The translations under genes and the position numbers were made by a program. Under the pieces are notes generated by a model. The model was not told the DNA's origin, searched no databases, and saw only the letters and a list, made by a program, of their open reading frames with translations. A DNA stretch of 46,704 nucleotides from Lachnospiraceae bacterium (GTDB lineage: Bacteria > Bacillota > Clostridia > Lachnospirales > Lachnospiraceae): the NCBI GenBank assembly GCA_014804365.1, contig JAAUZX010000021.1, positions 1 through 46,704 on the forward strand. Reading direction: 5' to 3'. The first letter of the stretch is position 1; every line of letters starts with the position of its first letter. Shown in pieces: positions 5,634 through 16,677 of this stretch.

Positions 5634-6422
5634 TCATTTTATGTCCTGTCTCTGAAAAAGCATCGTAGTCGTGAACATGATGAGCGCTGTCAACGCTGCT
5701 GTAAAGCATACAGAGATAACCACAGACATAACAGATACCGTTCCATTTAGCATAAGCTGATTGCTCCAATACGCCGGAAGCAGCTTAGAAACAAAACTTT
5801 CAGCGCCGGTTAAGTAATTTCCTATATACATAATCACCATCGTCAGAATGAAGGTAACAAAGGGATTTGCAAACATCCCGATCAAAAAGGTGATCCCGAT
5901 CAAGATGAAATACATTAAAACCTGTAAAAGAATACAAGCCCAAATATTCCATGTAGAAAGCCCCTCTATTGTTGCTGCAAACAAACCCGTTCCCATGGAC
6001 GAACCGGATACGAACAAGTAATAAGATGCGATACATACCAAAAGCGTTCCTATGATTGATACACCCGCTACAATGATTGCCGCCAGATATTTTCCGAGCA
6101 TTACGGTTGATCGTTTTCCGATCCGCAGTAACATCAGCTTGATTTGTCCACGCTCAATCTCCCCTGAAAATTGGAAAGCTGCAAATAGAATCAACAAAAT
6201 ACCCACAATTCCCAGTCCCGACAGTACATTCCAGACAATGAAAATAAAGTCCATACAGGAAAATACCTCTGTGCCGCCCACAGTCAGATCAAGCCTAATC
6301 ATTCCCTGTGAGTACCCGAATGTGATAACGAATGCCAACAGCATTGGGATGAACAGCATCAGACTGCTTTTTCGATGGCTGTCCTTATAAAGTTCCGTTT
6401 TGATTACTTGTACTAAACTCAT
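5634..6422 (-). CDS. ABC-2 type exporter permease
   Basis: A ~262-residue membrane protein of the bacitracin/lantibiotic-exporter permease type (ABC-2). Six hydrophobic segments are visible, the first right after a short basic N-terminus (SSLMLFIPMLLAFVITFGY) and a gap of a soluble loop (~45-60) before the second. The start is the ATG at 6422, preceded by AGGAGG with 9-nt spacing; this overlaps nothing of importance, whereas the longer frame from 6440 starts within the end of the ATPase gene. It follows the ATPase gene within 15 bp, so the two form one transporter. The adjacent GHKL/LytTR pair suggests regulation by peptide or envelope signals, but this is inference. Confidence 0.88.
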   Translation of the reverse strand: MSLVQVIKTELYKDSHRKSSLMLFIPMLLAFVITFGYSQGMIRLDLTVGGTEVFSCMDFIFIVWNVLSGLGIVGILLILFAAFQFSGEIERGQIKLMLLRIGKRSTVMLGKYLAAIIVAGVSIIGTLLVCIASYYLFVSGSSMGTGLFAATIEGLSTWNIWACILLQVLMYFILIGITFLIGMFANPFVTFILTMVIMYIGNYLTGAESFVSKLLPAYWSNQLMLNGTVSVMSVVISVCFTAALTALIMFTTTMLFQRQDIK

Positions 6423-6436
6423 ATTATCTATCCTCC

Positions 6437-7150
6437 TCATCTCATTAACTCCACCATGGAGATATTACTGTTTTTCATATTTTCATAGGTGTCGGAATAC
6501 TTAATCATGCCGTCACTCAAAACCACTATATCATCCGCCAGATCGCAAACTTCCGTGAGCTGATGACTGGAAAAAATAATGGATGTTTCATTTTCACGGC
6601 AGAGCTGACGAAGCAGACTCTTTACCTCTTCAATCCCGATGGGATCAAGCCCTACAAAGGGTTCATCCAGAATCAGCAGAACCGGTTTTGTAATGAGCGC
6701 CTGTGCCAGTGCTAAACGCTGCTTCATTCCGAAAGAAAATGAACGGACACTCTTATTAGCGGACGTTTCCAGACCTACAAAAGAAAGCAGTTCACGGATA
6801 CGTTCATCCTGTTCAGAGCCATGAATTGCCTTTGTCAACATCATGGCTACCTTCAAATTCCGGTAGGCTGTCATATCATCATAAAAATTTACATCTACGA
6901 GAGAACCGATTTCTGATTTCATCGTTTCGTTCGAAGCTGTCATTTTTGCACCATGAAAAATGATTTCTCCCTGATAATTTGTGTTTAACCCAAGAATAGA
7001 TTTCATAAGGGTCGTTTTCCCGGCGCCGTTTTTGCCGATCAGTCCAAGAATATGCCCCTGCTTGATTTGAAAAGATACATCTTTCAATACGGGGAATTTC
7101 TTATATCCCTTTTGCATATGCCTGACATCCAGAATAATGTTTTCACTCAT
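6437..7150 (-). CDS. ABC transporter ATP-binding protein
   Basis: ATPase subunit of the exporter with the downstream permease. Walker A (GKNGAGKTT), ABC signature region (FSFGMKQRLALAQAL), Walker B (LLILDEP) and the switch His (SSHQL) are all present, as in bacitracin-type (BcrA-like) ATPases of about 235-300 residues. I choose the ATG at 7150, giving 237 aa, because AGGAGG lies 9 nt upstream and the domain starts immediately (ILDVRHMQKGYK). The 60 extra residues of the longer frame fall within an inverted repeat and look non-coding. Confidence 0.93.
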   Translation of the reverse strand: MSENIILDVRHMQKGYKKFPVLKDVSFQIKQGHILGLIGKNGAGKTTLMKSILGLNTNYQGEIIFHGAKMTASNETMKSEIGSLVDVNFYDDMTAYRNLKVAMMLTKAIHGSEQDERIRELLSFVGLETSANKSVRSFSFGMKQRLALAQALITKPVLLILDEPFVGLDPIGIEEVKSLLRQLCRENETSIIFSSHQLTEVCDLADDIVVLSDGMIKYSDTYENMKNSNISMVELMR

Positions 7151-7184
7151 ATTTTGTTTCCTCCTATCCCTCTCCGATTTATCC

Positions 7185-7243
7185 ATACTTGTGCCCCATT
7201 TCTGCCTCGACACAGATGACTCATGAAAAATGGGCACAAGTAT
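7185..7243. repeat. Long inverted repeat in the leader of the ABC transporter gene
   Basis: Arms of about 16-17 bp (7185-7201, ATACTTGTGCCCCATTT, and 7228-7243, AAATGGGCACAAGTAT) are complementary apart from one bulged base, with a ~26-nt loop. It sits about 35 bp upstream of the ATPase start codon, so the mRNA leader would fold into a long stem. It could be a protein-binding operator, an attenuator-like structure or the ends of a small mobile repeat; the sequence does not decide. Confidence 0.7.
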
Positions 7244-7340
7244 AATTATGCACACATGCTGCAAGCAGTATGGCGCGTGTACGCTCAGCGCAGTAAGTGC
7301 GCAGAGCTGTGTTTCAGGTGTTCTTTTCATACTTTAGCAC

Positions 7341-7366
7341 AAAAAAAGACAGCTGCCGCAACTGTC
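7341..7366 (-). terminator. Terminator of the two-component operon
   Basis: On the minus strand, GACAG...CTGTC (inner TTGC/GCAG can extend the stem to 9 bp with one wobble) is followed at once by seven T residues. It lies ~35 bp after the histidine kinase stop codon. GAGGACAGTT occurs twice just before and within the stem. Confidence 0.85.
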
Positions 7367-7399
7367 CTCAAAACAATGGGTAACTGTCCTCTAAATATA

Positions 7400-8704
7400 C
7401 TATTGATAAAAAAGCATAACACTCACGGTAAACATATTTTCACAATATTCATATTCGATTGCTCCGTGATACTTCTCTACGGCTGATTTTACATTCCTCA
7501 TTCCCCATCCGTGATTCCGTCTGTCCTGTTTGGAAGTCAGAAAGTTTCCTTTATTAATAACCGGCTCTTCGATACTGCTGTTTTCAATGCGTATAATAAT
7601 GAATCGCTTGATACGACGAATCGTCACAATCAGTTTTTTGTCCGATCCTTCCGGCATTCTCCCACACGCTTCGATCGCATTGTCCAACAGATTCGTCAGA
7701 ATGGTGCATAAATCAACAGGGTCTATATTGCAATCCTTCGGATATTCTGCATGGATAGTTGTTTCTATATTATGCTGCAAGGCAACTTCCATCTTCTGAC
7801 TCAGAATATAATCGACAGCCTCTATACCCGTCCTGCATTCTACGGAATAAGCTGCCCTGTCGCCGCTGATTCTCTTAAGATATGCCTGTGCCTCCTCTAC
7901 CTTGCCGTCTGCCAGATAGTTTTGAAGCATGGAAAAATGATTGCCCATATCATGATACAGTCGTGCATTTGATTCATAAGAAGTCTTTGCCATCTGATAG
8001 TTTTTAGTCAAGAGCCGATTCTGCAGGGCGGTATTTTCCTGTTCCTGACGTATCCGTCTTATCTGATCATAAAAATAAACGGAACAGAGGATAAAAACAA
8101 AAGCAAGCGCTAATATCGTCTGAATCATATCTATTTTAAAATTCGTCATAGTAGTTATTGCCGACAACCAGTAACCTGCACATAAAAATCCTAATACAGC
8201 GCCTATTAATGCTTTTTCTGACTGCTTCAATGTCACTTTGGCTTTTTTCAATATAAAGTGAACCACTAACATAACCAGACTGTCTATCAACTTAAGCACA
8301 ATAAGTATATAGATACGCAAGGTACTGAATGATTGGTATTGTTCCGAAAATCCTTGATCGGAAAATCTCTCGATCAATCCTAAAACAGAACCTTCGACAA
8401 GCCCCAAACCGGTTAAGTAAATCACGGATACCGAGAGAAAACCGACAAAATTCCCACGAAATAGTATGCAGGCGCCAAAGGAAAGCGCGAGACAGAAATA
8501 GATGATTGTCGCAAGGCTGAAAGAAAGATCGATTAAATTCAATAAAATGATACCGGTAGTAATTACTGACGCAACCGCAAAAAATAAAAAAGCCTGCTTT
8601 TTCCGCTTAAATTGTTCCGGTGCTAATGCACGAACAATGGAAAAATAGAATGCGTTTTCAATGAATGTTACCAGCCACTCCACACATATTTGGACTGCAA
8701 TCAT
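7400..8704 (-). CDS. GHKL-domain sensor histidine kinase (AgrC-like)
   Basis: Sensor of a two-component system of the AgrC/VirS class. Residues ~1-215 hold six hydrophobic segments; a coiled-coil follows (QEQENTALQNRLL), then the phospho-acceptor region LYHDMGNHFSML with the His, and the HATPase with N-box LTNLLDNAIEAC and G-box GWGMRNVKSAVEKYHG. Length ~434 aa is typical. The start is ATG 8704, which overlaps the regulator's TGA as ATGA and has GGAGGG 7 nt upstream. AgrC-like kinases usually detect peptide pheromones; no agrD/agrB-like genes are visible here, so the ligand is unknown. The neighbouring ABC exporter is a plausible target. Confidence 0.92.
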   Translation of the reverse strand: MIAVQICVEWLVTFIENAFYFSIVRALAPEQFKRKKQAFLFFAVASVITTGIILLNLIDLSFSLATIIYFCLALSFGACILFRGNFVGFLSVSVIYLTGLGLVEGSVLGLIERFSDQGFSEQYQSFSTLRIYILIVLKLIDSLVMLVVHFILKKAKVTLKQSEKALIGAVLGFLCAGYWLSAITTMTNFKIDMIQTILALAFVFILCSVYFYDQIRRIRQEQENTALQNRLLTKNYQMAKTSYESNARLYHDMGNHFSMLQNYLADGKVEEAQAYLKRISGDRAAYSVECRTGIEAVDYILSQKMEVALQHNIETTIHAEYPKDCNIDPVDLCTILTNLLDNAIEACGRMPEGSDKKLIVTIRRIKRFIIIRIENSSIEEPVINKGNFLTSKQDRRNHGWGMRNVKSAVEKYHGAIEYEYCENMFTVSVMLFYQ

Positions 8705-9420
8705 ATCTGTTCCCTCCAAAAGCAAAGCATCGTTGTTTTGAAATCCGGAACATTAGCTTTACTGATCGTAATACGCTGATCATCCGCCAGAAATATTTCG
8801 GTATCATTCATGCCTTCCACATTTGCCAGATTGACAATACATCCCCTGTCCGCAAAATAAAAATATTTTTTATTTATTTCTTCAAAAACATGAGCCAACG
8901 TCTTTCTTACCGATCGTATTTTTCCCTCTGCCAAATGAAATATGGCATACTTCCCATCCTTCAGAATGTACAGTATTTCTCTATACGGAATCTGCTCCAC
9001 ATGATTTTTTACCTCAATCGTGTAAAATTCATTTCTTTCCAGACGATACAGCTTATAGAAATCTTCCAGCGCAAGCGGCAGCTTCTCGTCTATTATCGTT
9101 TTCGGAATATATCGAAATACAGAAAACTCATATGCTGATATAGCATATTCTAGATGAGAAGTAATGAAAATAATCTTTGCGGCAGGCATAGTGTCATAAA
9201 CAACTTTAGCTAAATCCATTCCGCCGATTCCGGGCATTTCTATATCCAAAAGGAACAAATCAAAATACATCCCATCTTGCAGATCGTATCGCAGATTTTC
9301 ACTGACCTGATAGGTTTGTATTTTGCAGTCCACACAATGCGAACTAAAAAATCTGTCAATAGCGTTTTCTACTTGAAAAACCATCGCTTCGTTATCGTCG
9401 CAAACCGCTATATGTAGCAC
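8701..9420 (-). CDS. LytTR-family response regulator (AgrA-like)
   Basis: A receiver domain (residues ~1-120) shows the acidic pocket (VCDDNE), the phospho-acceptor Asp in LFLLDIEMPG, the Thr/Ser of FITSH and the Lys of YIPK. A C-terminal LytTR DNA-binding domain follows (YTIEVKNHVEQIPYREILYI, KTLAHVFEEINKKYFYFADRGCIVNL). I place the start at the GTG at 9420, with GAGGGG 7 nt upstream and the first beta strand (LHIAVCDD) directly after it; the ATG at 9453 would add 11 residues without function. It is translationally coupled to the kinase gene. Confidence 0.92.
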   Translation of the reverse strand: MLHIAVCDDNEAMVFQVENAIDRFFSSHCVDCKIQTYQVSENLRYDLQDGMYFDLFLLDIEMPGIGGMDLAKVVYDTMPAAKIIFITSHLEYAISAYEFSVFRYIPKTIIDEKLPLALEDFYKLYRLERNEFYTIEVKNHVEQIPYREILYILKDGKYAIFHLAEGKIRSVRKTLAHVFEEINKKYFYFADRGCIVNLANVEGMNDTEIFLADDQRITISKANVPDFKTTMLCFWREQI

Positions 9421-9603
9421 AGCATTACCCCTCTTTCCAAATCTCTGTTCCACATTATACTATATTTTGTACTCGTTCTCAATGATTGCATGAATCCCGC
9501 AAATTAATTTCCCACCATAAATACCTATAGTGTGCTATAATAAACGTGAGCTTGACAGCTTCATTTCAAGCATACTATTTTACAATGATTGGGCAATGAG
9601 AAA

Positions 9604-10839
9604 ATGACATCAACAAAAGACATCAGAACTACATGGGAAAAACAGCCGGATGGCTTTCCGGATTTTCTAAAGGAAAACTCCGACCTTTTTCCCATAATTG
9701 AATACGCACGCAAAAATGAAAACGAAGCGCTTGTACAAGAATTCTCCCAGAGAATCCAGAAGAAACTACGTCAGAAACCGAAAGATAAAAAGCGTCAAAA
9801 ACAGTGGGAACAGAAACTTGAGCAGGAACTGGAACAAGATTTCACGGAGTTCTTAGAAAGAGAAAAAATACTATCCCTTTCCGAATGGATGAGCCCCGAA
9901 CTGCTTAATGCATTTAAGCGCGAGACAAAGCATTTCATAAGCAGGGTCAGGGAGTTTGATGAAACGCTGACTCCGGCACAGATCTGGCAGACATTGCGGA
10001 ACTATTTTATCTATGCCATGATCGTAGATATGCAGGGAAGGGAACAGCATGCGGGAGACCCGATTCTGGCGTACAGTCTGCTCTATCCTTATACTGACAA
10101 TTATATTGACGATGGTCAGATTGCAAAACAGGAGAAAGCGCGATATAACCGAATGATCGCATTGAAGCTACAGGAAGAAACCACCACACCTCATAACTTA
10201 TTGGAGGAAAAAACCTGCTGCCTTTTGGATATGATTCTGGACGCATACGATGGCGCAGAAAAGAAGAAAGTCGCGGGAACGCTGTTACAACTGCTGGAAG
10301 CTCAGAATAACAGTATCGGACAACAGCAAAAAAGCGTGACGGAAGAACAGATTCTGGAGATTTCAATCCGTAAAGGAAGTACTTCCGTACTGGCGGATTA
10401 TCTTTTTGCAACACCAGACTGGACAGAATATGAGGAAAGCTTCTATTTGAAATTCGGGTTTATCCTGCAGTTGGTGGACGATCTGCAGGATATCGAAGAG
10501 GACCGGAAGTCAGGGAGCCATACGCTGATGACGGAATCCGAAAAGCAACAGAAATTAGAACAATGCACCAATCATCTGCTTTGTTTCACATGGAATGTGA
10601 TTCGTGAATTTGAACCGGTCAACCCGGAGTTAAAAGGATTCGTCCTGAAATACTGTGTAGAAATCTCCCTTCTGACAGCAGCCATGAATCAGCAATTCTT
10701 TCCCATGAAATACTTGAAAGCATTGGAGCCATATCTGCCGTTTTCGATTGATTTCCTAAAGAAGAGGAAGAAGCAGCAGGAAAAACTTATTAATACATAT
10801 CAGAGCGGCAACATAAATCCGGAAGGCGTAACAAGATGA
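9604..10839 (+). CDS. Class I isoprenoid-synthase-like protein
   Basis: The all-helical protein carries two Asp-rich segments placed as in class I terpenoid/prenyl synthases: DNYIDD at 170-175 (numbered from the TTG at 9589) and QLVDDLQDIEEDRKSGS at 295-310, with the second followed by a helix typical of farnesyl/squalene synthases. Such motifs bind Mg2+-diphosphate of allylic substrates. The first ~120 residues are charged, with Lys/Gln-rich coiled-coil character, and are not part of the usual fold. The start is uncertain: ATG 9604 (GAG close upstream) or TTG 9589. Its stop overlaps the ATG of a Fic gene (ATGA), so the two are made together. Enzyme activity is inference; the reaction, substrate chain length and the role next to Fic are unknown. 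Confidence 0.72.
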   Translation: MTSTKDIRTTWEKQPDGFPDFLKENSDLFPIIEYARKNENEALVQEFSQRIQKKLRQKPKDKKRQKQWEQKLEQELEQDFTEFLEREKILSLSEWMSPELLNAFKRETKHFISRVREFDETLTPAQIWQTLRNYFIYAMIVDMQGREQHAGDPILAYSLLYPYTDNYIDDGQIAKQEKARYNRMIALKLQEETTTPHNLLEEKTCCLLDMILDAYDGAEKKKVAGTLLQLLEAQNNSIGQQQKSVTEEQILEISIRKGSTSVLADYLFATPDWTEYEESFYLKFGFILQLVDDLQDIEEDRKSGSHTLMTESEKQQKLEQCTNHLLCFTWNVIREFEPVNPELKGFVLKYCVEISLLTAAMNQQFFPMKYLKALEPYLPFSIDFLKKRKKQQEKLINTYQSGNINPEGVTR

Positions 10840-11594
10840 CAGATTATGAAAAAGCCATTGCCCTGTGGCAGCAAAAAAATATAACAACGGATGCTGAACT
10901 GGCTGAAGCATTAAACGGACACAGTATTGCGTTCGCATATCATTCTGGCAAAATCGAAAATGAGAACATTACGTATCATGATACCAGAGAGATCTTTGAA
11001 CATGACGGAGTAACTTCTTACACCGGAGATCTGCGGACATTGTTTGAAATCCGCAATGCCAAAGATGCGAACGAACTGCTTCTTACTTCGTTCCATGAAA
11101 AACGCGCTTTCGATGAAGCATTTATAAAAGAATTGCACCTGTTCTTAACCCAGAATACTTATGACACGCGCAGATGGCAGCTGGGCGAACGCCCCGGAGA
11201 ATACAAACGGCACGACTATGTCACCGGCAAAGAAGAGATTGGCGCCGCACCGGAAGACGTATCGGAAGAAATGAATGAACTGCTCTCGGAGCTTACAGAC
11301 GTGGCAGACCGTAATGCACTGACTGCCGCGGCATACTTCCATGCAAAATTTGAAAATATTCATCCTTTTGCTGACGGCAACGGTCGCGTCGGCCGCTTGG
11401 CAATGAATTACTTTCTGATCCTGCACAATCATCCACCTATCATCATCCACGAAGAAGACCGTAAAAATTATTACGTGGCATTGGAGGCATGGGATAACCG
11501 GCAGGATCTTGATCTACTTTGTATTTTTTTAAAGGAACAAACGGAGAAAACTTGGGCAAAACAGATTGCGCGTACCCAGAAACACAAAACCTGA
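10836..11594 (+). CDS. Fic family protein (AMPylase-type) with N-terminal inhibitory motif
   Basis: Fic proteins transfer AMP or other nucleotides/phosphates to target proteins. The full active-site loop HPFADGNGRVGR is at residues 176-187, with the catalytic His176. The N-terminal SGKIEN (37-42) matches the class II inhibitory motif (S/T)xxxE(G/N), whose Glu blocks ATP binding until relieved. The beta-hairpin flap region lies around 113-130. Length 252 aa fits a short Fic protein. The gene overlaps the isoprenoid-synthase-like gene by 4 bp, and strong hairpins follow. It is likely self-inhibited; the target may be the partner protein or a cell component, which cannot be told from sequence. 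Confidence 0.93.
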   Translation: MTDYEKAIALWQQKNITTDAELAEALNGHSIAFAYHSGKIENENITYHDTREIFEHDGVTSYTGDLRTLFEIRNAKDANELLLTSFHEKRAFDEAFIKELHLFLTQNTYDTRRWQLGERPGEYKRHDYVTGKEEIGAAPEDVSEEMNELLSELTDVADRNALTAAAYFHAKFENIHPFADGNGRVGRLAMNYFLILHNHPPIIIHEEDRKNYYVALEAWDNRQDLDLLCIFLKEQTEKTWAKQIARTQKHKT

Positions 11595-11608
11595 CCTTTA
11601 CTTACGAC

Positions 11609-11696
11609 CTCATACGGAGAATGCCTGTTTTTGGTATTTTCCGTATGAGCATTTAGCAGTCTCGTAGGCGGCGTTCTTTGACGCCTTAGAGCTGCT
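11609..11696 (+). terminator. Two consecutive hairpins after the Fic gene
   Basis: Hairpin 1 pairs CTCATACGGA (11609-11618) with TCCGTATGAG (11640-11649), extended by AATGCC/GGTATT. Hairpin 2 pairs AGCAG..CTC..GGCG with CGCC..GAG..CTGCT (11655-11696) and is followed by TAAGCTTTTATT. They separate the Fic operon from the convergent lipoprotein gene and may terminate both. Confidence 0.6.
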
Positions 11697-11703
11697 TAAG
11701 CTT

Positions 11704-12852
11704 TTATTCTCTTATAGTCATCTCATAACTTCCCGATATCCCATATCCGATTGCATTTTCTTCCGCTATCTGATGATCCAGAACTTCCACATTGATCTGA
11801 TTGGGAAGAAACATAATATGGAGTGTTCCTGTCCCGCCCCAGCCGTCGTCTGTATATTCAAAAAACAGTTCACCGTTTTGAATCGTGCCGACAATATCAT
11901 CCACCGATGCAATCCGCTCCGTTATTCCCTGTTCGGTAAAAAGGCTTCCGGAAAATTCATTACCGTTACTGATACTGCATGTCAGTTCATTTCTACTCGT
12001 GGGCATGGGATCTTCATATGCCGCAACATATCCGGGGCCTACGCACCATTTTCCTGTATAGCTTTCGTAATCTGTAAGAGGTTCATTCCCGTTTGTCAGT
12101 TGAAGCAGTCTTTTTATATCTTTCGCCAGTACATTGCTTTCCCATGGAAGATATTCGTTTATTTTATCGCTGAGCTCCTCATTATAAGTAAAATAGTTCC
12201 CGTTATCTTCATAGATTCGCACCACCGTATGCGGAATCGCTCCCTGCGGTCCGGCACCCGTCATATACTCCGCCCCTATCACTACATCCTCTTTCTCATC
12301 AGCGTTCGTGTCCGTAAACATGACAAACTTCACATCATAATACATACCATAATCGCTGGTATGATCTTCGCTGATATACGGGAATTGATAGAGTATCTTT
12401 TCATCTTTTAACAGATAGAAAGTAACATCCTCTTGCGGATCTGCTCCTCCCGCAAAATCAGGTTTGTATGATACAATCTTCACTTCTCCCCAGTCATTCA
12501 ATTCCACCTGAAAAGACTGCTCCTGTATGATTCTATCTGCATTCAATTTGTCCTGCACTTGGGTACCGGACGGCTCGTCCAATATCTGTTCCGGCTTCTC
12601 TGATTGTTCCTGTTGCTCCGGCTCATCCAATTGCTCTTGCTGTTCCGGCTGTTCCGGCTGTTTCGTTTGTTCCGGCGACAATCCTCCCAACAAGTCCTGC
12701 TCTTCCACATTCTGCTGTGATTGCGAAGCAACATCCGGCTCTTCCTGCTCTACCCGGTCCTGTATGTCCCGTTCTTCACATCCTGCAAGCAGCATGAGCG
12801 CCGCCGCAATTCCTAACGTACCCATAACTTTCTTTTTGTTCATACAATGCAT
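11704..12852 (-). CDS. Secreted lipoprotein with Pro/Glu/Gln linker
   Basis: N-terminal signal with lipobox LLAGC (Cys about residue 25) predicts lipidation and anchoring on the outer face of the membrane. Residues ~45-105 form a low-complexity linker rich in P, E and Q (repeats of PEQ, EQQEQ). The C-terminal part holds an EF-hand-like loop DTNADEKED at about 200, as in VCBS/FG-GAP-type proteins, and a W/Y/G-rich beta domain (DDGWGGTGTLHIMFLP). I do not recognise a named family. The start may be ATG 12852 or the ATG 9 nt later (MNKKKVMG). The Gln/Glu linker is compositionally unusual beside its neighbours. It is convergent with the Fic operon. Confidence 0.8.
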   Translation of the reverse strand: MHCMNKKKVMGTLGIAAALMLLAGCEERDIQDRVEQEEPDVASQSQQNVEEQDLLGGLSPEQTKQPEQPEQQEQLDEPEQQEQSEKPEQILDEPSGTQVQDKLNADRIIQEQSFQVELNDWGEVKIVSYKPDFAGGADPQEDVTFYLLKDEKILYQFPYISEDHTSDYGMYYDVKFVMFTDTNADEKEDVVIGAEYMTGAGPQGAIPHTVVRIYEDNGNYFTYNEELSDKINEYLPWESNVLAKDIKRLLQLTNGNEPLTDYESYTGKWCVGPGYVAAYEDPMPTSRNELTCSISNGNEFSGSLFTEQGITERIASVDDIVGTIQNGELFFEYTDDGWGGTGTLHIMFLPNQINVEVLDHQIAEENAIGYGISGSYEMTIRE

Positions 12853-13002: not shown

Positions 13003-13096
13003 AAGCGCAAGCTTGTCTGCTTGCGGCATAATAATTGCATTGCAATTCCCAGAGAATCGTGTTTGAAACAGCAAATTGGATTTGGAGAGAGGATAC

Positions 13097-13549
13097 ATGT
13101 CAAGAACGGAAGAAGTTACTTTAACAAATATGTGTATGATATATGATGGTTCTAAAGTTTTAGTGCAGGAACGGATAGATGACGACTATGGTGGAATTAC
13201 ATTTCCCGGAGGTCATGTTGAAAAGAGTGAGTCATTTACAGACGCAGTAATTCGAGAAGTATTTGAAGAAACAGGCTTGAAAATATCTGCGCCTAAATTA
13301 TGTGGTATTAAAGACTGGATAAACGATGATGGTTCAAGATATATGGTTTTGTTTTACAAAACCGATCAATTTGAAGGTGAGCTTATATCTTCTGATGAAG
13401 GAGAAGTATATTGGCTTGAATTAGAAGAAATGAAGCAGATCCATTTGGCTGAAGGAATGGATAAAATGTTAGAAGTTTTCTTAGATGATAATATAAGTGA
13501 GTATTTCTTTTATAAGGAAAATGGTGAGTTGATGGGGATGTTAAAGTAA
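13097..13549 (+). CDS. Nudix hydrolase (MutT/8-oxo-dGTP diphosphatase-like)
   Basis: Nudix enzymes hydrolyse nucleoside diphosphates linked to another group. The complete Nudix box GGHVEKSESFTDAVIREVFEETG matches G-x5-E-x7-REUxEExGU at about residues 35-57 of the chosen product. The segments CMIYDGSKVLVQER and DDGSRYMVLFYKTDQFEGEL match the MutT/YtkD-type fold, so sanitising oxidised nucleotides is a reasonable guess. I start at ATG 13097 (GAGAGG upstream), giving 150 aa. It is monocistronic, with its own promoter and a terminator at 13562. Confidence 0.9.
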   Translation: MSRTEEVTLTNMCMIYDGSKVLVQERIDDDYGGITFPGGHVEKSESFTDAVIREVFEETGLKISAPKLCGIKDWINDDGSRYMVLFYKTDQFEGELISSDEGEVYWLELEEMKQIHLAEGMDKMLEVFLDDNISEYFFYKENGELMGMLK

Positions 13550-16185: not shown

Positions 16186-16677
16186 ATGATTTATAAATAT
16201 TGCGCAGAATGTGGTCATAAGTTAGAAGATATTAAATGTGGTGATGATGATTGTAAGATTTGTCCAGCATGTAAAAAAATATATGGTAGTAGTCCTTTTC
16301 CCGTTGTAGAAGTGTTAGTAGTCAATGAGTTTAATGAAATACTTCTACTAAAGCAGAATTACATATCAGATACTAAATGGACAGTCGTGTCCGGCTATAT
16401 GATAGATGGGGAAACGATTGAGGATGCTGTTGCACGTGAAGTAAAAGAAGAAACCGGACAAGATGTAATTAGGTGTAAATATATATCCAGTTATTACTTT
16501 GCACCTAAGCAGCTTATTATGATTGGATTTATCGCTTATGTAAAGAAATCACAATTTACAAACTCTGATGAAGTAGATGACATTAAATGGTATAAAATAG
16601 ATGAGGTAAATGATGTCATAGCTCGCGAAAATAATTGCTCTGGTATGCATTGGGATAAATGCAAAGAGTTTTTATAA
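16186..16677 (+). CDS. Nudix hydrolase with N-terminal zinc ribbon (NudC-like)
   Basis: Residues 1-35 contain a Cys4-type zinc ribbon (YCAECGHKL, CKICPACKKIYG), followed by a Nudix domain with GYMIDGETIEDAVAREVKEETG (complete G-x5-E-x7-REUxEExGU). The zinc-ribbon/Nudix order is that of NADH pyrophosphatases (NudC) and related NAD-cap hydrolases, but at 163 aa it lacks the N-terminal NudC domain and the SQPWPFPxS motif, so the substrate may differ. GGAAGGG precedes the ATG. It ends about 50 bp before the promoter of the type III toxin-antitoxin locus. Confidence 0.88.
   Translation: MIYKYCAECGHKLEDIKCGDDDCKICPACKKIYGSSPFPVVEVLVVNEFNEILLLKQNYISDTKWTVVSGYMIDGETIEDAVAREVKEETGQDVIRCKYISSYYFAPKQLIMIGFIAYVKKSQFTNSDEVDDIKWYKIDEVNDVIARENNCSGMHWDKCKEFL

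Follow-up and report, generated by a model that had tools for sequence, protein, structure and literature searches.

A class I isoprenoid-synthase-like gene overlapping a Fic gene in Lachnospiraceae: a local, young arrangement of two genes that usually live apart

The overlapping gene pair

The stretch of DNA considered here comes from a Lachnospiraceae bacterium (contig JAAUZX010000021.1 of assembly GCA_014804365.1); the whole stretch, 46,704 nt in length, is termed the window, and all coordinates are window positions. It carries a gene for a protein resembling class I isoprenoid synthases (called the synthase below), followed on the same strand by a gene for a Fic protein (table 1). The synthase open reading frame (ORF) starts at an ATG at 9604, with an in-frame TTG also available at 9589, and its stop at 10839 lies within an ATGA that also holds the Fic start. 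An initial annotation, made from the letters alone, had described such an ATGA-overlapping pair, and both ORFs and the overlap at 10836–10839 are as it described. The promoter-like pattern that precedes the synthase is a common one, with 7 sites in 9400–11750 against 4.7 expected in shuffled sequences.

Table 1. Positions of the features of the gene pair in the window.
Feature	Position	Strand	Basis
Promoter-like TTGACA-18-TATTTT 5′ of the synthase	9552..9581	+	pattern match only
Class I isoprenoid-synthase-like coding sequence, 411 aa	9604..10839	+	ORF, homologues, AlphaFold2, fold matches
First Asp-rich motif DNYID (residues 165–169, D165..D169)	10096..10110	+	aspartates invariant in alignment A2
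Second Asp-rich motif DDLQDIEED (residues 292–300)	10477..10503	+	aspartates invariant in alignment A2
Segment also present in the Fic leader of locus L051, where Fic stands alone; here codes the end of the synthase tail	10810..10835	+	DNA homology with L051 from 10810
GGAAGG, Shine–Dalgarno-like site of Fic within the synthase frame	10821..10826	+	read from sequence
ATGA, synthase stop and Fic start, 4-base overlap	10836..10839	+	
Fic coding sequence, 252 aa	10836..11594	+	Pfam Fic, PADLOC PDC-S04, AlphaFold2, FicD-like fold
N-terminal inhibitory motif SGKIEN (S37, E41, N42; S37xxxE41N42)	10944..10961	+	aligns with the S..EG motif of BT_2513 (3cuc)
Fic catalytic motif HPFADGNGRVGR	11361..11396	+	core residues invariant in Fic alignment A3

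The synthase-like protein

The AlphaFold2 model of the first protein (predicted local distance difference test, pLDDT, 88; predicted template modelling score, pTM, 0.88) adopts a class I, all-helical terpenoid-synthase fold, and 49 of the 50 structural matches shown by VIA-align are named class I synthases. Foldseek gave a best E of 2.1e-3, with a template modelling (TM) score on the target of up to 0.62, and found no PDB match at E ≤ 0.001, so the fold statement rests mainly on VIA-align. Structure prediction thereby supports a class I isoprenoid-synthase fold, the likeness that the initial annotation had read from two Asp-rich motifs. Those motifs are not a matter of chance, because both patterns occur, with invariant aspartates, in all 63 sequences of alignment A2, which was made from the window protein and 62 chosen relatives (31–83% identity to it). 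The residues concerned are D165, D169, D292, D293, D296 and D300, and K257, Q289 and other polar residues are likewise invariant. The ends of the predicted helices by the motifs (H157–168; H275–295 and H297–303) would fit an arrangement in which the two face each other across one cavity, as does an alignment with IspA in a low-confidence register.

A family profile covering residues 100–362 was compared with 25 IspA-type sequences of relatives; the probability was 20% and the E 0.0011, and the motifs lined up as expected. The full-length profile gave no match to the same 25 sequences, and the likeness to IspA is suggestive only. The sole match of a PDB sequence search with A2 was H. pylori IspA, in which the second motifs were aligned at a non-significant E of 0.41. 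No Pfam or NCBIfam model matched the synthase over its cut-off. Chain-elongating polyprenyl synthases carry DDxxD and then RRG; the window protein reads DNYIDDGQIAK instead and contains no RRG, and it has no match at E ≤ 1 to PF00348, the model for these enzymes, which 10 of the 63 A2 sequences match weakly (best E 0.0064). The NDxxSxxxE-type second motif of canonical bacterial terpene cyclases is also absent, DDLQDIEED standing in its place, and for PF00494 (squalene/phytoene synthase) no match of the window protein is listed at E ≤ 1. The lack of a fitting curated model and the reading DNYID rather than DDxxD would suit a non-enzyme that has kept the fold and binds a prenyl ligand. We give this little chance, given that the six aspartates of the motifs and the further polar positions noted above, K257 and Q289 among them, have stayed invariant across the window protein and its 62 relatives.

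The family has at least 1,292 relatives at E ≤ 0.001; among them is a short one of 304 aa (locus L056), which may be a broken gene. A housekeeping polyprenyl synthase was present in all 25 genomes searched, and among 148 genomes of the class just one had a squalene/phytoene synthase, a rare enzyme there. A literature search found no paper on this family, most subscription papers lying outside its coverage. What emerges is a large, patchy and uncharacterised family in gut Lachnospiraceae and their kin, apparently of class I isoprenoid synthases, that none of the searched Pfam and NCBIfam models covers; as a discovery it is more durable than the gene pairing.

The Fic protein

The second ORF matches Pfam Fic at E = 1.3e-21, and its sequence HPFADGNGRVGR conforms to the pattern HPFx(D/E)GNGRxxR, with motif residues D180, N182 and R184 and the second motif arginine at R187. 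N-terminal to the Fic core, SGKIEN at residues 37–42 conforms to S/TxxxE(G/N) and was aligned with 3cuc; it sits in a low-confidence part of the AlphaFold2 model. The best structural matches of that model are to human FicD, the fold match spanning residues 1–252. These features support a predicted self-inhibited Fic AMP-transferase, presumably of the type with an N-terminal inhibitory helix known as 'class II'. The initial annotation had reached the same view, and it holds: the catalytic motif is intact, the protein has its own N-terminal inhibitory motif, and Glu41, which had been singled out, is the E41 of SGKIEN.

Distribution of the pair

A Fic gene lies in the fetched flanks of only 4 of 23 distinct synthase loci, namely the window and loci L008, L009 and L010, all of which have the ATGA overlap. 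Conversely, no synthase stands beside any of seven stand-alone close Fic loci. In the count of 23, repeat fetches were counted once (L001 and L019 are the window, L002 is L013, L003 is L014, L004 is L055, L005 is L015, L006 and L018 are L057, L007 is L056, L085 is L017, L093 is L008 and L094 is L010) and other short loci were replaced by longer ones. Further Fic genes could have been missed: the L009 contig ends inside Fic, L087 extends about 0.5 kb past the synthase, and L015 starts at the synthase.

Whole genomes give a similar picture. In a sample of 77 genomes of the genus, the synthase was found in 13 and a close Fic (E ≤ 1e-60, that is, at least 72% identity) in 11; four genomes had both, seven had the close Fic without the synthase and nine had the synthase without a close Fic. 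Distant Fics are common: at E ≤ 0.001, a Fic of some kind was matched in 39 of 61 genomes. The synthase is rare beyond the genus, being found in 9 of 397 genomes of the family and, with a distant query, in 3 of 295 of the order, the window's own genome included in both. The separate occurrence of both genes (7/77 and 9/77) also bears on the suggestion that Fic modifies the synthase, or another isoprenoid enzyme, and so tunes isoprenoid flow. Adjacency and probable translational coupling speak for it; the close Fics without a synthase, the synthases without a close Fic and the known bacterial Fic targets, which include GyrB and ParE (PMC7479194), make it improbable.

The flanks of the other synthase loci vary. 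In L013 the gene follows a hemZ-like gene and precedes an ispG-like one, in L017 it lies beside trp-like genes, and in L091 and L092 beside a thioredoxin-like gene; gene names are readings of protein starts, and flanks were compared visually and with BLAST searches against the window proteins. A conserved neighbour of the synthase was considered and rejected, as neighbours differ from locus to locus. Two further relatives, with 60–63% identity, were seen: that of L058 is flanked by an XRE-like regulator and a 784-aa ORF, and that of L016 lies two ORFs beyond an RlmH-like gene, these names too being readings of protein starts. As a lone ORF, the synthase gene seems to insert at many unrelated places.

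The initial annotation had envisaged a conserved two-gene system, and this is not supported: the pair is present at 4 of 23 synthase loci and at none of seven stand-alone Fic loci, and Fic has been deleted in L011 (see below). The outcome that it had named as damaging to its proposal, a pair not conserved in other genomes, was largely what was found, except that the pair does persist in a few related species. The overlap is a local, young arrangement in a few related Lachnospiraceae, not a conserved system. No paper on a synthase–Fic gene pair was found in a literature search, whose coverage left out most subscription papers.

Origin of the overlap

Two loci illuminate how the genes came to overlap. 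L011 has window-like flanks and a synthase of 83% identity, and after ATGACAGAT, which comprises the Fic start and two codons, its sequence jumps to the post-Fic DNA of the window; to judge by the sequence, it is a locus that has lost Fic by deletion and kept the synthase. In L051, a locus of genome G013, a MATE gene (73%), a Fic gene (86%) and a lipoprotein gene (59%) keep the order and relative strands that they have in the window. This locus has no synthase, and an extra 948-aa ORF stands between its Fic and lipoprotein genes. L051 DNA matches the window from 10810 onward, so the last synthase codons correspond to the leader of a stand-alone Fic, where a GGAAAGG lies at about the same place as the window GGAAGG. 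The tail that these codons encode, EGxTx at the very end of the synthase, occurs in 6 of 120 listed relatives (P0001, P0002, P0004, P0007, P0009 and P0010). The reading of synthase ends covered 17 of the 23 loci (all but L056, L086, L087, L090, L091 and L092), and among the 13 unpaired loci so read only L011 has the tail.

Given that the end of the synthase is coded in an apparent Fic leader, the overlap probably arose when the two genes were brought together. A stand-alone synthase gene would have landed between a promoter and the Fic gene that it served; the synthase frame would have continued into the Fic leader, where the first stop is the TGA of Fic's own ATGA. Fic would have kept its ribosome-binding site (GGAAGG, 10821–10826), and its translation would today be coupled to that of the synthase. 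In keeping with insertion of the synthase, the promoter region of the L051 Fic matches the region 5′ of the synthase in L010 and L011 over 28 nt at 86%.

A probable young operon

The reading that we prefer, at a probability of about 0.6, is that these are two genes that usually live apart, now forming a young operon of two independent enzymes that share one mRNA rather than one biochemical task. One likely transcript would serve both, and Fic translation would start through coupling as well as at its own GGAAGG site. With Mg2+ bound by D165/D169 and D292/D293/D296/D300, the synthase would ionise a prenyl diphosphate. Fic would be largely off, with Glu41 set against R187 as Glu234 is against Arg374 in FicD; once released, it would transfer AMP to a target protein or remove AMP from it. 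Ratios of nonsynonymous to synonymous substitution (dN/dS) in pair-bearing genomes (0.17–0.22 for the synthase, 0.09–0.14 for Fic) indicate that both genes are under purifying selection. Comparison of the L011 synthase, whose Fic is lost, with pair-bearing genomes gives similar values (0.20–0.21), and the unpaired synthases L012 and L013 give a lower one (0.10).

Several observations weigh against this reading. Genus genomes with both genes always have them adjacent (4/4), none of the 77 having been found with the synthase and the close Fic apart; the two occur together a little more often than expected (4 against 1.9; P = 0.083, uncorrected for kinship); and the overlap has persisted, intact in four genomes that are each the one genome of their species in the sample. 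The promoter match noted above is short and such promoters look alike, and the direction of change is not proved, as L051 could instead have lost a synthase. The best structural matches of the Fic model are to FicD, an enzyme inhibited by geranyl diphosphate (GPP) and farnesyl diphosphate (FPP) (PMC12974487), and by analogy this keeps a functional link alive.

The phylogenies add to these points. In the Fic tree, built from P0241–P0301 of 120 listed relatives and ten loci with L053 left out, the paired Fics (window, L008, L009, L010 and P0243) fall within one nine-row clade with support 95/91, in which four of the nine rows are of unread context; L051 is among the nearest kin outside it, and by the program's count the 'paired' label changes three times on this tree. 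In the synthase tree (P0002–P0060 of 120 listed relatives and 17 loci), the paired synthases do not form one clade, at least two label changes being needed with unpaired rows between, so a single origin requires further Fic losses or exchange, more than once. Moreover, the contigs that carry the synthase P0004 and the Fic P0243 are equally long (14,864 bp) and come from a Lachnospiraceae metagenome-assembled genome. A jitter test gave about a 1% chance of any such equal-size match among contigs above 10 kb. When all 120 × 120 contig sizes were compared, five coincidences were found against 1.1 expected: apart from P0004/P0243, two are contigs below 1.7 kb, too short for both genes, one at 3,124 bp joins differing sources, and one at 3,176 bp joins P0095 and P0308, both from ENA, of which P0095 lacks the tail. 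P0004 and P0243 make a convincing case because P0004 has the same tail type as the window. The pair extends, then, to at least one lineage beyond the four close genomes. P0004 groups outside the window's 17-row clade in the synthase tree, so the pair is older than those four genomes or has moved. On a third branch, the body of P0010 groups with P0018 and P0021 and its tail is of the P0004 type. Perhaps the tail was exchanged by recombination close to the 3′ end, or the pair moved together; with this hint of exchange, a two-gene mobile unit is possible.

Isoprenoids as possible regulators of Fic

A functional link has a precedent in human FicD. In this enzyme Glu234 is held against Arg374, and GPP and FPP, as opposed to dimethylallyl diphosphate or alcohols, inhibit AMPylation and deAMPylation, FPP occupying the ATP pocket on D367, N369 and R371 (PMC12974487). 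This paper, dated 2026, suggests that further autoinhibited Fics may share the behaviour and points to bacterial ones; VopS and AvrB were not inhibited, the effect is described as specific to the metazoan enzymes tested, and no apparent biological reason is seen for FPP binding in the lumen of the endoplasmic reticulum (PMC12974487). What the paper offers is a precedent for inhibition of Fic by isoprenoid diphosphates, not for relief of inhibition, which the initial annotation had proposed.

Applied to the window, the precedent suggests a metabolite-regulated pair, in which an isoprenoid diphosphate used or made by the synthase would compete with ATP in the Fic active site, so that the synthase would determine how much of the Fic can act. 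The window Fic has equivalents of the FPP-contact residues in D180, N182 and R184, which would permit such binding; they are no evidence for it, being part of the general Fic motif and hence not diagnostic. We regard this as unlikely: the genes separate in both directions, VopS and AvrB escape an effect described as specific to the metazoan enzymes tested (PMC12974487), and the polyprenyl synthase of all 25 genomes searched means that prenyl diphosphates would be present without this gene. By analogy with FicD one may go further and picture a natural bacterial isoprenoid–Fic switch, in which the two proteins would be translated as a single unit, the prenyl diphosphate of the synthase would fill the Fic ATP site and AMPylation of a housekeeping target would follow isoprenoid supply. 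Its chances are slim; if true, it would be a bacterial, cytosolic counterpart of the inhibition of human FicD by FPP. The locus is of value as a concrete bacterial pair for testing the open question of isoprenoid control of autoinhibited Fics, a test of low probability and high value.

Proposed toxin–antitoxin and defence roles

A third proposal of the initial annotation was a defence or toxin–antitoxin module; it is weighed here as a toxin–antitoxin or phage-defence module in which the synthase-like protein would act as the antitoxin. The Fic protein does match PDC-S04 of PADLOC (E = 4e-43), a candidate family for which no curated cut-off is given. This is set against several findings: the inhibitory motif lies within Fic itself, the window synthase has no S/TxxxE(G/N) motif, and Fic occurs alone elsewhere. 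Presence of the pattern in the synthase would in any case mean little, as it occurs somewhere in 27 of the 63 A2 sequences. One study that tested a PDC-S04 reported no evidence of defence activity (PMC12409345). Nor was the defence island that the initial annotation had suggested looking for seen among the ten neighbours scanned, the cassette at 5634–9453 and 11704–12852 being left out. In that PADLOC scan two neighbours matched the candidate family PDC-S07, one protein had weak matches to Cas3 models, and seven had none at E ≤ 1e-5. With no antitoxin motif in the synthase and no defence island among those ten neighbours, such a role is not supported, and we consider it highly improbable.

The two PDC-S07 matches are at 13076–13549 and 16186–16677. 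The protein encoded at 13076–13549 is a putative NUDIX hydrolase, and the PDC-S07 matches are probably matches to a general enzyme family.

Neighbouring elements

Between the MATE gene and the synthase, the window carries at 5634–9453 a cassette of an ABC-2 permease, an ABC ATPase, a GHKL sensor kinase and a LytTR regulator. It is present in the window, L008 and L009 and absent from L010 and L011, and is probably a recent insertion next to the pair. Just after Fic, at 11610–11705, lies a short palindromic repeat resembling repetitive extragenic palindromic (REP) sequences or miniature inverted-repeat transposable elements (MITEs), with six partial matches elsewhere in the window's genome. L010 lacks the repeat between Fic and the lipoprotein gene, and in L011 the deletion that removed Fic stops within a copy of it.

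Comparison with known systems

Like the FicTA pairs (EcFicT/EcFicA, VbhT/VbhA and Fic-1/AntF), the window pair is a two-gene unit with a Fic; it differs from them in that Fic carries the inhibitory motif within its own sequence, while its partner lacks one. Among class I isoprenoid synthases, comparison was made with MoeN5, pimarane-type diterpene synthases and polyprenyl or geranyl(geranyl) diphosphate synthases. The window protein shows only 7–15% sequence identity to these over the structural matches, many of which begin only at residue 74–107, so that an additional N-terminal portion of the window protein lies outside them, and it differs from them in its first motif, DNYID, and in lacking both RRG and an NSE-type motif. 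FicD, BT_2513 (3cuc) and the C. difficile Fic (4x2c-e) have in common with the window Fic the Fic motif, the N-terminal S/TxxxE(G/N) and the fold. FicD has tetratricopeptide repeat (TPR) and membrane parts, whereas the window Fic is bacterial and has neither. The inhibition of FicD by isoprenoid diphosphates brings together the two chemistries that also meet at the window locus, that of an autoinhibited Fic and that of prenyl diphosphates. In FicD they are linked biochemically, in an animal protein (PMC12974487), whereas in the window the link is bacterial and consists of a gene overlap only.
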